Part shown: positions 44,794 through 51,530 of the stretch, in pieces
Numbering within the stretch: the first letter of the stretch is position 1
Layout: each line of letters starts with the position of its first letter
Assembly: GCF_026616205.1 (NCBI RefSeq)
Contig: NZ_JANHGR010000001.1
Coordinates: 186,001-250,000 of the forward strand
DNA from: Halolamina litorea
Lineage (GTDB): Archaea; Halobacteriota; Halobacteria; Halobacteriales; Haloferacaceae
Reading direction: 5' to 3'
Length of the DNA stretch: 64,000 nucleotides
Translations under genes and position numbers: made by a program
The notes under the pieces: model-generated
Seen by the model: only the letters and a program-made list of their open reading frames with translations
The model's database searches: none
Told to the model about the DNA's origin: nothing

Positions 44794-45186
44794 ATGGGTT
44801 CGAACTGTACGTCGGTGAGTGCGGGGGCGCTCGCCGACACCGACCGGGTCGTTATCGTGGGGGACAATCAGCGGAACGCGGAGATGATGGGGGAGACGCT
44901 CGCCGGAGTGACTGTGGCGACTGCGACGCCCGTCGGCGCCCGTGACCGCCTCGGCTCGGGGCCGAGCCTCGTCGACGCCGTCGTCGTCGACACCGAGACG
45001 GTCACCCGAGGGGTGACCGAACTGGTACGGGACGTGCGTGAGCAGGGGATACCGGTCGTGCTGCTCTCGGGAGACGCCTCCCCGTCGGTTCGGCGTAACG
45101 CCGCCGGCGTCGACGGGATGGCCTTCGAGCAGAAACCGATCCGGAGCGACCAGTTCCGCGAGCTCGTGGCCGACGCGCTCGCGTAA
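44794..45186 (+). CDS. Receiver-like protein, first of a tandem pair
   Basis: A 130-residue single-domain protein of CheY-like fold. VVIVGDNQRNAEMMGETLAG replaces the acidic pair of normal receivers by GD. VDAVVVDTETV keeps an Asp at the phosphoacceptor position, PVVLLSGDAS the Thr/Ser strand, and FEQKPIRSDQFREL the conserved Lys-Pro. It has no output domain. It is close in sequence and equal in length to the protein at 45355-45747, so the pair arose by tandem duplication. The short message (TATA-like CGCTTTCC near 44757) is probably under the palindrome at 44737. Confidence 0.75.
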   Translation: MGSNCTSVSAGALADTDRVVIVGDNQRNAEMMGETLAGVTVATATPVGARDRLGSGPSLVDAVVVDTETVTRGVTELVRDVREQGIPVVLLSGDASPSVRRNAAGVDGMAFEQKPIRSDQFRELVADALA

Positions 45187-45314: not shown

Positions 45315-45354
45315 GAGACACTTACGCCCGTAGCTCGTGTCCGGTCGAGTACCG

Positions 45355-45747
45355 ATGGGATCCAAGTCCGCGTCGGGGGGAGTGGGGACTCTCGCCGATA
45401 CGAACCGTGTGGTTGTCGTAGGGGAGAACAGCCGGAACGTCGACCTGATGACCGACGCCCTCGCGGGCTACGAGGTCACCGCCGCGACGGCGCCCGAGGA
45501 GCTGAACCCGGTGCTTTCGGGAACGCTCCCGGTTGGCGCCGTCGTCGTCGACACCGAGACCGTGAGCGAGGACGTGATCGCGCTGATCGACGGCGTGCTC
45601 GAACGTGAACTGCCGGTCGTGCTGCTGGCGGGAGAGGCCTCGACGGTCGTGCGCGAGGACGCCGCCGCTACCGACGGCCTGACGTTCCGCGAAAAGCCGC
45701 TTCGCAGCCCGGACCTCCGTTCGGCAGTCGGCGACGCGCTCAACTGA
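45355..45747 (+). CDS. Receiver-like protein, second of a tandem pair
   Basis: A 130-residue paralogue of the protein at 44794. It keeps the same scheme: RVVVVGENSRNVDLMTDALAG at the site of the acidic pair, VGAVVVDTETVSEDV at the phosphoacceptor strand, PVVLLAGEAS (Ala instead of Ser) and TFREKPLRSPDL with the Lys-Pro. The N-terminal GSKSASGGVGTLADTN matches the first copy's spacing. ATG 45355 is preferred to the GTG 45337 because the promoter homology is measured from it. It could be an adaptor in signalling; no partner kinase is adjacent. It converges on engB with 11 nt between stops. Confidence 0.75.
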   Translation: MGSKSASGGVGTLADTNRVVVVGENSRNVDLMTDALAGYEVTAATAPEELNPVLSGTLPVGAVVVDTETVSEDVIALIDGVLERELPVVLLAGEASTVVREDAAATDGLTFREKPLRSPDLRSAVGDALN

Positions 45748-46703: not shown

Positions 46704-47636
46704 ATGAGCAAGTACGAGAAACACACCACAGTCAGCGACGAGGAGCGTCGGGAGTTCCTCAAGGCTCTCGGCGTCGCCGGCGCGGTCGGCGCCGCCGGAG
46801 TGACGGTGGGGGAACTGAACGAGACGGTCGACGCCTCGAACGTCGAGGCGCTCAGTTCGGTCGGCGCCGCCGTGAGCGAGGAGATCGCCGGTCAGGTCGA
46901 CGCCGGCCTCCTCGCCGACCAACAGGCCGAACTGGCGGCGACGCTGTCGGCGGCGCCGGCGACCGTCGAGAGCGGGGCGGCCTTCGAGTCGCCCGGCACG
47001 GCGTTCGACGACATCGCGGAGGCCGGATGGGCCACTTACGGCCACCTCGAGGAGGCCGGGTTCTTCGAGAGCCTCGACGAGCACATGCCGGCGTTCAACC
47101 CCGAGCGCCTGACGACGAGTACGCGGGCGTTCCTCGGGTCGGAAGCGGCCGTCGAACCGCTCTCGGACCTCGACCTGGGCGGCACCGCGGGTGTCGACCT
47201 CGTCGCCCCGGTGATCAATCAGGCCGAGAAGCTGAGCCACTTCCACTGGATCGCTTCCGGCGACATCCCGGCCGAACACCAGCTCGCCGACGTGCTGCCG
47301 CCGATCACGCAGCGCGCGGCCGGCGGGGTGCTCCTCTGGCTCCAGAACCTCGACGACCACCTGTATCAGGACCAGGTGCTGTTCGACGAGCAGATCCTCG
47401 CTGACGGCATCTGGGAGGTCCGGGGCATGACGGCCGGCTTCTACCTCATGACCGAGGGAGCGAAAGCCGCCGGCACCGACTCGGATCGCTTCACCGACGC
47501 CGAACTCGGCGCGCTGTTCACCACGAGTATCGCACTCCAAGAGGTCGCCCAACGGATGCTCCCGGTCCACATGCACTGGATCGACGAGGAGAGCCGCGAC
47601 CCGGGCAACGTGAAGATCGACTCCATCTCCATCTAA
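46704..47636 (+). CDS. Tat-exported protein paired with the PQQ-propeller gene
   Basis: A 310-residue protein of unknown family. The N-terminus has DEERREFLKALG, a twin-Arg motif, followed by the hydrophobic stretch VAGAVGAAGVTVG and no lipobox. The mature part is helical. It contains two HxHW motifs, LSHFHWIAS (near residue 178) and PVHMHWIDE (near 293), which could ligate a metal or haem. Its stop is followed after 4 nt by the PQQ-type gene, so the two are co-transcribed and probably form one complex. The promoter region is unusually AT-rich for this genome. Confidence 0.75.
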   Translation: MSKYEKHTTVSDEERREFLKALGVAGAVGAAGVTVGELNETVDASNVEALSSVGAAVSEEIAGQVDAGLLADQQAELAATLSAAPATVESGAAFESPGTAFDDIAEAGWATYGHLEEAGFFESLDEHMPAFNPERLTTSTRAFLGSEAAVEPLSDLDLGGTAGVDLVAPVINQAEKLSHFHWIASGDIPAEHQLADVLPPITQRAAGGVLLWLQNLDDHLYQDQVLFDEQILADGIWEVRGMTAGFYLMTEGAKAAGTDSDRFTDAELGALFTTSIALQEVAQRMLPVHMHWIDEESRDPGNVKIDSISI

Positions 47637-47640
47637 CACA

Positions 47641-49698
47641 ATGGCCACAGAGAACACCGACGACGAGCGACTGTCCGAGGCGATCGACCGCGACCTACTC
47701 GACGACGAGGTCGACGACCCCGAAGAGCGGATGAACTACATCGACACCGGGGAGAACGCCTACGGCGAGAACGTCCTGCAGGCCAACAGCGAGGCCCCCG
47801 GTTCGGACGTGACCGACGAGATGCTCCGGAACGACAAGGACCGGACGGACTCGTGGCTCCACTTCAACAAGGGGCACGAACAGACCGGCTACTCGCCCAG
47901 CGAGGCGCTGACGCCGGAGAACGTCGACCAGCTCGAGGAAGCTTACACCCTCGACACCGGCAGCGGCGGGCTCCAGACGACGACGACCATCGTCCCCGGC
48001 GAGGGCGACACGCCGCCGGTCATGTACTTCATCGGCGCGGACACGAAGGTCTGGGCGGTCAACGCCCGCACGGGCGAGGAGTACTGGACGTTCCAGTGGG
48101 CCTACCCCGAGGACGCCGACTACGAGATCCAGCCGCGCTTCCGCGGCGTCTCGGTCTATCAGGACAAGGTCATCTTCGGCACGGCCAACCTCCACATGGT
48201 CGCGCTGGACCGCTACACCGGCGAGAAGCAGTGGGAGACGGACTCGATGGAGGCGCTGCCGTCGCTGCAGAACCTCCCGTTCCCGTTCATCGGCTACTCC
48301 CACTCGGGTTCCTCGCACGTCTACGACGGCACCGTCTACGTCGGGCAGGTCGGCGGGGACAACTCCCTGATGGGCCACACCCACGCGATGGCGCTCGACG
48401 CCGAGACCGGCGAGGTCGAGTGGACGACGAAGTTCGCCCCCGAGGACGAGTGGCTCGGTGACCTCTGGAAGCACGCCAACAGTTCCCCGTGGAACGCCGC
48501 GGCGATCGACCCCGAGTCGGACACGATCGTCTGGAACGCCGGGAACCCGCGGCCGATGCTGAACCCGATGGTCCGGCCGGGGCCGAACCAGATGAGCGCC
48601 GGCGTCGTCGCCCTCGACGCCAACACGGGCGAGGTCAAGTGGAACGACCAGAACTCCCCGCAGGACCACTGGGACTACGACGGCCAGTTCGTGGCGTCGA
48701 TCGTCGACGTGGAGATCGAGGGCGAGGAGCGTCGTGCGGTCGTCTACGAGCACAAGAACGGCTGGGTGTACGTCTACGACATCGAGGACGGCCAGCTGCT
48801 CTCCCGCTCGGAACCCTACGCAAAACAGAAGAACATCCACAGCTTCATCGGCAAGGGCGAGGAGAACGCCACGGAAGTCTGGCCCGCGGCGGCGGGCGCC
48901 TCGAACTACCCGGCCGACGGCCTCAGCCCGAAGACGGGCTACCGATACTCCGGCTCGCAGGACGCCGGGAACATCCTCTGGATGAACGACTTCAGCTACC
49001 CCGAGGAGGGCGTCGGCACGCCCGGGATGGGGACCGGCCCCGACGGCGAGGACGACATCTCCGGGGGCGGACAGGAAGCCAGCATCGAGGGCGAGAACTA
49101 CACGGCTTACGTCACCGCGACGGACCTCAGCACGGGCGACCAGGCGTGGCGGACCGAACTCCCCGACACGCAGGACCTGTTCAACAACTCCTTCGTGGTC
49201 TACCCCGGCGGCACGACGCCGACCGCGGGCGGTCTCGTGTTCAGCGGCTCCTCGGGCGGGCACCTCTACGCGCTCGACGACGAGACCGGCGAGATCCTCT
49301 GGGAGGCAGACACCGGACAGCGCATTACTGCGACGCCGGTCGTCTGGGAAGACGAGTCGGAGGGTGCCGTCTTCGTCGGCGTCCCCTCGGGCTCCCAGAT
49401 CGTGACCTACCGCGCGGACGTAGACCTCGACGCCGCCGAGCAGACCGAAACGCCGGCCGAGACCGAGACGGCGACGGAGACGGCCGAACCGACCGACACG
49501 GAGGCCCCGACCGATGCAGCGACCGACGCTGCCACCGACACCGCGACCGACGCGGCCGACACCACGTCCACGAGCGGCCCCGGCTTCGGCGCCGCGGCGG
49601 GGGCAGCGGGCGCGGCGGGCGCCGGCTACGCGGCCAAGAAGCGCGCCGACGGCGACGAGGACGCGGACGACGGCGACGACGGGTCGACCGAGGAGTAG
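47641..49698 (+). CDS. PQQ-type beta-propeller dehydrogenase-like protein
   Basis: A 685-residue protein. Residues about 90-600 are an eight-bladed quinoprotein propeller with repeated W-docking blades: VWAVNARTGEEYWTFQWAY, MVALDRYTGEKQW, VVALDANTGEVKWNDQNSPQ then HWDYDGQF, and LYALDDETGEILWEAD. The GNPRPMLNPMVRPGPNQ element is as in PQQ alcohol dehydrogenases. No signal peptide is present: the first 45 residues are acidic and polar. The C-terminus has a Thr/Glu-rich stalk, then SGPGFGAAAGAAG and a Lys/Arg plus acidic tail, like a degraded PGF-CTERM. Export may depend on the Tat partner upstream. Confidence 0.82.
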   Translation: MATENTDDERLSEAIDRDLLDDEVDDPEERMNYIDTGENAYGENVLQANSEAPGSDVTDEMLRNDKDRTDSWLHFNKGHEQTGYSPSEALTPENVDQLEEAYTLDTGSGGLQTTTTIVPGEGDTPPVMYFIGADTKVWAVNARTGEEYWTFQWAYPEDADYEIQPRFRGVSVYQDKVIFGTANLHMVALDRYTGEKQWETDSMEALPSLQNLPFPFIGYSHSGSSHVYDGTVYVGQVGGDNSLMGHTHAMALDAETGEVEWTTKFAPEDEWLGDLWKHANSSPWNAAAIDPESDTIVWNAGNPRPMLNPMVRPGPNQMSAGVVALDANTGEVKWNDQNSPQDHWDYDGQFVASIVDVEIEGEERRAVVYEHKNGWVYVYDIEDGQLLSRSEPYAKQKNIHSFIGKGEENATEVWPAAAGASNYPADGLSPKTGYRYSGSQDAGNILWMNDFSYPEEGVGTPGMGTGPDGEDDISGGGQEASIEGENYTAYVTATDLSTGDQAWRTELPDTQDLFNNSFVVYPGGTTPTAGGLVFSGSSGGHLYALDDETGEILWEADTGQRITATPVVWEDESEGAVFVGVPSGSQIVTYRADVDLDAAEQTETPAETETATETAEPTDTEAPTDAATDAATDTATDAADTTSTSGPGFGAAAGAAGAAGAGYAAKKRADGDEDADDGDDGSTEE

Positions 49699-49835: not shown

Positions 49836-51530
49836 ATGGTTAACTGGAGGGATCAGACGTCCGTTCTCGCGCTCCTGATCGGCTTGTTGCTGGCGACGCT
49901 CTTTCTGCGAACGAACGTCCCGTCGTTCCTCTCGGTCACGTCGTCGATCACGTTCATCTTCCAGTTGATGCTCGCCGGGACGGTCATCGCGATCCTCCGA
50001 AACGAGGCCGGGATGTCCACCTTCGGGGTGTTCGGGCCGGCGATCCTGGCGTTCGCGTGGATCGAGGTCGGCCCAGTCTGGGCATTTTTCATGATCTCGT
50101 ACCTTTTCGTCGTGACCGTCACCGCTCGGGTCGCGATGACCGGTCTCGATCTGGGGACGCCACACCGCGTCGCCGCGCTCCTCGTCATCACCGGTATCGC
50201 GGCGTTCACCGTACAGGCGGTCGGACAGGTACAGGGTATCCCGGCCCTGAACACGGTGTTGCTGTTCCCGATAATCCTGACCACGTGGTACGCCGAACGG
50301 TTCGTCGAGAGCGTCTCCGAAACCGGCTGGGCGCCCGGAGCCCGGCGGCTCACGTTCACGCTCGTCGGCATCGTCGCGGCCGCGCTCGTCGCCAGCTACG
50401 AACCGCTCGTCTCGGTGATCAGCCAGAACCCGGAGAGTTGGGTCGGCCTCGCCGCGGTCAACATCTACCTCGGGGCCGGCACGAACGTCCGGCTCGGTGA
50501 GTACTTCCGATTCAGGCAGCTCCGCCGCTCCCTCGGCGCCGAGGGCGCCGCCGGCGTGCTCACGATGCGAACCCGGAACCGGGACTTCATCAGCCGGTAC
50601 AACCCCGCTCCCCTCATGTCGGGGTTCTCGAAGGTGCAGATGAAGCGGCTCCTCCACGGCCTCGACATCCCGACGCCGGAGACGTTCATGGTCGTCGACG
50701 ACGAGGCGACACTGGCGGCGTTCGGCTCGTTCCTCGAGGAGCACGACCGGTTCGTCGTCAAGCCCACCGACGGGAGCGGCGGGCGGGGGATCCTCGTCGT
50801 TCGCGGCCGCGACAGCGGCGACGGGCGCTTCGCCACGAACCGGGGGAAGCTCACGGAGGAGGCGGTCGTCTCCCACGTCCGGAAGCTCTGTTTCGGCGGG
50901 AACGCCGACTACGGGGCCCGAAGCAGCGCGGTCGTCGAAGCGATCGTCGAACCCGACGGGCTGTTGGCCGACCGCGTCGAGAGCGGCGTCCCGGACCTGC
51001 GGGTCATCGTTCTCCAGGGGACCCCGATCATGGCCATGGTTCGGCTCCCGACGGTCGAGTCGAATGGGACGGCAAACATCCACACCGGCGCCGTCGCCGT
51101 CGCCGTCGACATCGCCTCGGGGACGGCCTCGGGGGGCTACCAACAGACCCGGAACGCGTTCGTGGACGTTCACCCCGACACGGGGGCGTCCCTCGAGTTC
51201 CGCATCCCGGAGTGGGAGTCAGTGCTCGAAACGGCGACACGGGCGTCCATCGCCTCCGGCTTCGGCTACACCGGCGTCGATATCGTCTTCGACGCCGACC
51301 GGGGCCCGATGGTTCTGGAGGTGAACCGTCGTCCGGGGCTCGGCATCCAGAACGCGAACATGGACGGCCTGCTCCACCGGCTCCGGTTCGCCGAGTCGCG
51401 GGCCGACGACACGCAGTTCAGAACGGCGGCCGAGCGCGTCCGGGAGGCGATGGCGTGGTCGCGGGCCGACTGGGCGGCCGATCCGGAAACGCCACCGGCG
51501 CAGCCGCGGAAACAGGAGGTGCGCCAATGA
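49836..51530 (+). CDS. Multi-helix membrane domain fused to an ATP-grasp ligase
   Basis: A 564-residue protein. Residues 1-225 form about seven membrane helices, like the 7TM domain otherwise found with inactive transglutaminases. Residues about 240-530 are an ATP-grasp enzyme of the RimK-like alpha-L-glutamate ligase group: RFVVKPTDGSGGRGILVV (ATP-binding Lys and loop, near residue 310), VPDLRVIVLQG and VLEVNRRPGLGIQNAN (Glu-x-Asn metal ligands, near 495). It should join an amino acid or peptide to an acceptor at the membrane. It is coupled by ATGA overlap to a small two-helix gene. Confidence 0.82.
   Translation: MVNWRDQTSVLALLIGLLLATLFLRTNVPSFLSVTSSITFIFQLMLAGTVIAILRNEAGMSTFGVFGPAILAFAWIEVGPVWAFFMISYLFVVTVTARVAMTGLDLGTPHRVAALLVITGIAAFTVQAVGQVQGIPALNTVLLFPIILTTWYAERFVESVSETGWAPGARRLTFTLVGIVAAALVASYEPLVSVISQNPESWVGLAAVNIYLGAGTNVRLGEYFRFRQLRRSLGAEGAAGVLTMRTRNRDFISRYNPAPLMSGFSKVQMKRLLHGLDIPTPETFMVVDDEATLAAFGSFLEEHDRFVVKPTDGSGGRGILVVRGRDSGDGRFATNRGKLTEEAVVSHVRKLCFGGNADYGARSSAVVEAIVEPDGLLADRVESGVPDLRVIVLQGTPIMAMVRLPTVESNGTANIHTGAVAVAVDIASGTASGGYQQTRNAFVDVHPDTGASLEFRIPEWESVLETATRASIASGFGYTGVDIVFDADRGPMVLEVNRRPGLGIQNANMDGLLHRLRFAESRADDTQFRTAAERVREAMAWSRADWAADPETPPAQPRKQEVRQ

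Follow-up and report, generated by a model that had tools for sequence, protein, structure and literature searches.

How can a propeller protein related to the PQQ-dependent alcohol dehydrogenases reach the outside of the cell if it carries no export signal, and does it work there at all? XoxF, PedH/ExaF, and MxaF have their own signal peptides and use cytochromes c as acceptors. The question is raised by two adjacent genes in the window, i.e., the 64,000-nucleotide stretch of Halolamina litorea DNA analyzed here. The first gene (positions 46704 to 47636, plus strand, ATG to TAA) encodes P1, a Tat-signal helical escort or partner protein of 310 amino acids. The second (positions 47641 to 49698, plus strand, ATG to TAG) encodes P2, a protein of 685 amino acids that has no signal at its N terminus and is assigned to the PQQ-alcohol-dehydrogenase-type propellers based on its match to PF01011 and its relatives in the PDB. 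The stop codon of P1 and the ATG of P2 are separated by 4 nt (CACA, positions 47637 to 47640, plus strand). Both open reading frames and their spacing, the twin-arginine motif of P1, the lack of a signal on the propeller, and two HxHW motifs in P1 had been listed in the initial annotation and were confirmed.

We compared 61 loci, comprising the window and 60 fetched regions, and found P1 followed by P2 on the same strand in every one of them, the intergenic distance ranging from −10 to +79 nt. In searches of the class, for which five to seven candidates per genome were scored, P1 was present in 69 of 391 genomes. A reverse survey with the P2 propeller core as the query, compared with the P1 matches by coordinates, revealed 41 P2 genes in 27 of 194 genomes, all adjoining one of 41 P1 genes, and these 27 genomes were exactly those with P1 in the 194-genome set. 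The sixth P2 in a genome of the same genus (G240) also has an adjoining P1, one that had been missed by the P1 search. The same arrangement was seen in 35 further loci, 34 of which stem from a separate collection of named genomes with partly overlapping genomes. P1 was not found outside the order in 295 genomes of the phylum, nor outside the haloarchaea in the genome collection. The survey also looked for either gene occurring frequently without the other and did not observe this, so that the pairing put forward in the initial annotation held in both directions (61/61 forward and 41/41 reverse); it is obligate in the sample and not due to chance. The distances of P1 and P2 are also closely correlated (mirror r = 0.94, with all of 1,000 shuffles at or below 0.29). 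The window genome itself harbors four P1-P2 pairs, whose paralogs are 28 to 57% identical with the pairs kept together, and for three of these pairs both genes have matching orthologs in Halolamina salifodinae.

In a number of loci (L058, L062, L064, L066, L068 to L070, L084, and others), P1 and P2 lie in the same frame with a single stop and one to a few further codons between them, which looks like tight coupling. Stop-codon read-through was considered for the 26 loci with an in-frame P1-stop-P2 arrangement and rejected, as TAA, TGA, and TAG are all used, double stops are present in some, and the frame varies elsewhere. For a relative, P1 and P2 were modeled by AF2 as one read-through chain; the pTM of 0.66 is about the value for two unoriented domains, so that the model reveals no interface.

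The Tat signal region of P1 spans residues 12 to 33 (DEERREFLKALGVAGAVGAAGV; positions 46737 to 46802, plus strand), with the twin arginine at residues 15 and 16 followed by EFLKALGVAGAVGAAGVTVG. P1 scored above the cut-off of the NCBIfam Tat signal model TIGR01409 (21.6 bits; cut-off, 16.7) and slightly below that of Pfam TAT_signal (19.3; cut-off, 22.7), and a clear AxA cleavage site was not seen at its N terminus. Apart from the Tat signal, nothing in Pfam or NCBIfam matched P1, and its sequence matched no solved structure. The AF2 model is all helical (pLDDT, 88; pTM, 0.89), and a Foldseek search of the PDB with this model found no structural relative (best E value, 1.5). In the homolog alignment, the invariant residues are G54, H114, W182, G208, W212, D217, A277, Q283, and R298.

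P2 matched Pfam PF01011 (PQQ) with an E value of 2.5e-50 and 172 bits (cut-off, 26.7) and also PQQ_2. Its relatives among solved PQQ-alcohol dehydrogenases include the PedH-type ethanol dehydrogenase 6zcv (4e-43) and the XoxF structure 6dam (1e-34). Since it remains below the cut-off of TIGR03075 (258.6 bits versus 480), P2 is a relative of the PQQ-dependent alcohol dehydrogenases rather than a core member. When the 61 P2s were aligned with XoxF (6dam) and PedH (6zcw), equivalents of R110, W237, D299, D301, and K326 were found in all of them and of N256 in 60; the Arg and the Trp belong to the PQQ site, and the Asn is a metal-site residue. In window P2, the two aspartates lie in the motif DHWDYDG (positions 48664 to 48684, plus strand), where Asp345 corresponds to the catalytic D299 of XoxF and Asp347 to D301, the additional Asp found in lanthanide enzymes. 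P2 thus belongs to the same propeller family as XoxF, PedH/ExaF, and MxaF and has their active-site residues, among them the D-x-D that marks lanthanide coordination in PQQ-alcohol dehydrogenases (PMC11996626) and is present in 61/61 P2s. It differs from these enzymes in lacking a signal, in its obligate partner P1, and, in the window clade, in missing the Glu and the Cys-Cys pair: in window P2, Asp replaces the metal-ligand Glu, Tyr replaces one pocket Trp, and the vicinal cysteines are absent, while two Halolamina paralogs have Tyr at the Glu position.

Regarding export, no P2 member carries a signal peptide. The first 60 residues of window P2 are strongly acidic and polar and contain no hydrophobic stretch, and a mis-called start concealing a signal was found upstream of P2 neither in the window nor in the 61 loci. 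P1, on the other hand, falls into two classes with a mean N-terminal hydrophobicity of 1.53 (Tat class) versus 0.11 (no-signal class), and in 35 of the 61 sampled pairs neither protein has a signal. Mis-called P1 starts hiding a Tat signal in the no-signal class were also rejected, given the few upstream codons in hand-checked stop-to-stop frames and the polar N termini. On the P2 tree, Tat-bearing P1s occupy all deep branches. One loss of the signal maps to the root of a clade of 34 members and another to the lineage of the fourth Halolamina pair (L041), whose counterpart L135 likewise has no Tat signal; judged from this tree, there were at least two losses. All 26 P1s of the Tat class are free of Cys, and the number of P2 cysteines beyond the CC pair and the copper ligand is 1.3 in the Tat class versus 3.4 in the no-signal class, although these statistics are non-independent, since the contrast amounts to about two changes on the tree.

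The metal Glu is present in 35/35 P2s of the no-signal class and the Cys-Cys pair in 34/35. The pairs of the L058 to L094 class (e.g., L068 and L073), with a signal on neither gene, have the most complete PQQ-alcohol-dehydrogenase active site (Glu, Cys-Cys, and D-x-D). Going by their sequences, the no-signal pairs are probably cytoplasmic quinoproteins, and this predicted branch is the most surprising feature of the system. The view of the initial annotation that the propeller works outside the cell is therefore probable for the window type but overstated as a rule, as the majority of the pairs in the sample are signal-less and probably cytoplasmic. Because P1 persists where the Tat signal is gone, it must, as we infer, do more than export and also fold, stabilize, or modulate P2. 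That some members lost the escort signal and kept both genes would make the folding role of the escort separable from its export role.

Two features of P2 point to the cell surface. Window P2 ends in an archaeosortase-type tripartite tail (residues 646 to 668; positions 49576 to 49644, plus strand) consisting of GPGFG, an Ala/Gly hydrophobic stretch, and KKR, preceded by a Thr-rich linker; its matches to PGF-CTERM models are weak. Tails of the GPGFG...KKR type were found on seven P2s, each with a Tat-bearing P1. The window genome also has the same kind of tail on three proteins with Tat signals, including two cupredoxins. Known archaeosortase A substrates leave the cell through Sec or Tat by means of a signal that they carry themselves. 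P2, which has no N-terminal signal of its own, would differ from them as an ArtA substrate exported by its partner. It resembles them in the PGF, the hydrophobic stretch, and the positively charged residues near its end, the elements of the tripartite definition (PMC7157517). The second feature is a type-1 copper domain (H, CxxHPxxM) within the N-terminal part, before the propeller, of four signal-less P2s (L047, 9729 to 11828; L051, 6110 to 8203; L054, 9821 to 11920; L056, 9752 to 11842), all with a Tat-bearing P1. All four copper ligands are visible in L047, L051, and L056, to which L054 is a sister. Furthermore, Tat-signal blue-copper proteins adjoin several P1-P2 pairs, and it is plausible that such proteins are the electron acceptor of P2. 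Adjoining one pair, L050 (10955 to 12964, minus strand) encodes a fusion of a cupredoxin with a glucose/sorbosone dehydrogenase domain.

We consider it probable from these gene data that a haloarchaeal oxidoreductase of the quinoprotein type is made up of two subunits, P1 and P2, and is exported by the hitchhiker mechanism. P2 would fold in the cytoplasm and then bind P1, and the complex would leave the cell via Tat on the twin-arginine signal of P1. Outside, the archaeosortase-type tail would keep P2 at the surface, which may be the Halolamina solution, and P2 would oxidize a small organic compound, presumably an alcohol, at a metal-assisted site of the PQQ-alcohol-dehydrogenase type, with electrons passing to a blue-copper (cupredoxin) carrier. 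Since no P2 member has a signal, export on that of P1 is the simplest reading, and because the helper carries the export signal in the window pair, P2 probably reaches the surface together with it. Hitchhiker export, as suggested in the initial annotation, finds good comparative support for the window type, for which a Tat signal on P1 only, the P2 tail, the copper-domain fusions in relatives, and the lack of Cys in P1 all argue; the new two-subunit dehydrogenase predicted there is likewise plausible.

A comparable division of labor is known from the FAD glucose/gluconate dehydrogenase of Burkholderia cepacia (BcGDH), where the Tat hitchhiker gamma subunit is needed for folding and secretion (PMC6719666). 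Like this subunit (Gluconate_2-dh3), P1 is a small helical Tat-signal protein encoded with a signal-less dehydrogenase, which in BcGDH is extracytoplasmic. In contrast to P2, the catalytic subunit of BcGDH is a GMC flavoprotein with a 3Fe-4S cluster, and its acceptor is a multiheme cytochrome, where P2 would use a cupredoxin. A relationship of P1 to the FAD-GDH gamma subunit was rejected, as P1 has neither a Pfam or NCBIfam match to it nor a fold match in the PDB. In Tat heterodimers such as NiFe hydrogenases and formate dehydrogenases, one signal peptide also serves two subunits, and the membrane C-tail can be on the signal-less one (PMC10924467). P1-P2 resembles them in this respect at the level of the genes but consists of unrelated enzymes, with an archaeosortase-type tail as the anchor.

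Several other readings were weighed against the proposed co-export. The initial annotation had seen a possible heme or metal site in the two HxHW motifs of P1, HFHW (residues 179 to 182; positions 47238 to 47249, plus strand) and HMHW (residues 289 to 292; positions 47568 to 47579, plus strand), which would make P1 an electron-transfer subunit. Two such motifs arose in none of 20,000 shuffles of P1. However, the double HxHW is confined to window P1 and its 84% ortholog, with a single one in L046; H179, H289, and H291 are each present in only 3 of 46 homologs, the only invariant His is H114, and HMHW is unconserved, as is HFHW except for W182. The motifs are thus a lineage oddity and no family signature, and a heme or metal site based on them was rejected. 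As window P1 contains no Cys and no CxxCH motif, c-type heme does not apply, and with no family match either, an electron-transfer role of P1 through HxHW is highly improbable. We also think it unlikely that the window pair is cytoplasmic, with the RRxFLK stretch being a helix of the folded subunit that does not function in Tat export, in parallel to the sister clade that lacks this stretch. The many signal-less pairs, most of which keep the best active site, the missing cleavage site, and the RR region modeled by AF2 as an ordered helix would fit this, but the TIGR01409 score above the cut-off, the sharp difference in hydrophobicity between the classes, the Cys-free Tat-class P1s, and the occurrence of archaeosortase tails and copper-domain fusions only alongside Tat-class P1s speak against it. 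A role of P1 as a cytoplasmic assembly chaperone or Tat proofreading protein instead of a co-exported subunit appears quite unlikely. Retention of the signal-less P1 in the no-signal clade does suggest a role beyond export, e.g., in folding or stabilizing P2, but in the window class P2 would be left with no export route, the signal being on P1.

A further reading is compatible with hitchhiker export and concerns what P2 does after it: P2 might be an "empty" quinoprotein that leaves the cell together with P1 without binding PQQ and has a binding or scaffold role or another cofactor. Thirty genomes with the pair yielded no PqqC; a PqqC positive control was silent as well, so that the absence of PqqC is only probable, and searches for PqqE in the same genomes gave generic radical-SAM matches only; PQQ biosynthesis genes are thus probably absent from pair-bearing genomes. 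The match of P2 to TIGR04528 (acido-empty-quinoprotein group A; 1.4e-61), although below the cut-off (208.7 versus 650), and the partly degenerate active site of the window clade, with Glu replaced by Asp or, in the two paralogs, Tyr and no CC, point in the same direction. On the other side, the invariant Arg, Trp, two Asp, and Lys, the nearly invariant Asn, and the Glu of every no-signal member indicate catalytic constraint on P2. PQQ can be scavenged and may be taken up here, or P2 may use a different cofactor. We therefore regard an empty P2 as possible but doubtful. Somewhat more speculative, and one we would rather not expect to hold in full, is a broader reading that sees the family as a clade of archaeal quinoproteins of the lanthanide (D-x-D) type, served by a dedicated helical partner with a new fold; at least two losses of the partner's Tat signal would then have given rise to true cytoplasmic PQQ-type dehydrogenases in hosts that do not make PQQ.

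With co-export of P1 and P2 as the preferred reading, the pair would represent a conserved archaeal case of Tat co-export that is accessible to experiment, in which a large predicted surface enzyme has an anchor tail and no export signal of its own. It also places D-x-D (lanthanide-type) relatives of the PQQ-alcohol dehydrogenases, with predicted blue-copper acceptors, in the haloarchaea. A literature search, largely outside subscription journals, found no paper on such enzymes in this group, and the conserved quinoprotein-escort system, a variant of Tat co-export, is apparently undescribed.

An aldehyde:ferredoxin oxidoreductase gene is located within about 10 genes of the pair in 14 of 58 loci, including L052 (12402 to 14324), L059, L060, L063, L067, L074, L081, and L082; most of the 14 belong to the no-signal class, and no such gene is near the window pair. 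Such a neighbor would suit an oxidation of alcohol via aldehyde to acid, which we take as a hint only. In the window, P2 is directly followed by a gene (positions 49836 to 51530, plus strand) whose product joins a 7TM_transglut membrane domain to an ATP-grasp domain of the sugar-transfer type; this gene is not found at that place in H. salifodinae (L098). Upstream of P1, two tandem genes (positions 44794 to 45186 and 45337 to 45747, plus strand) encode small, mutually similar proteins of about 130 amino acids, one with a weak MEDS match.
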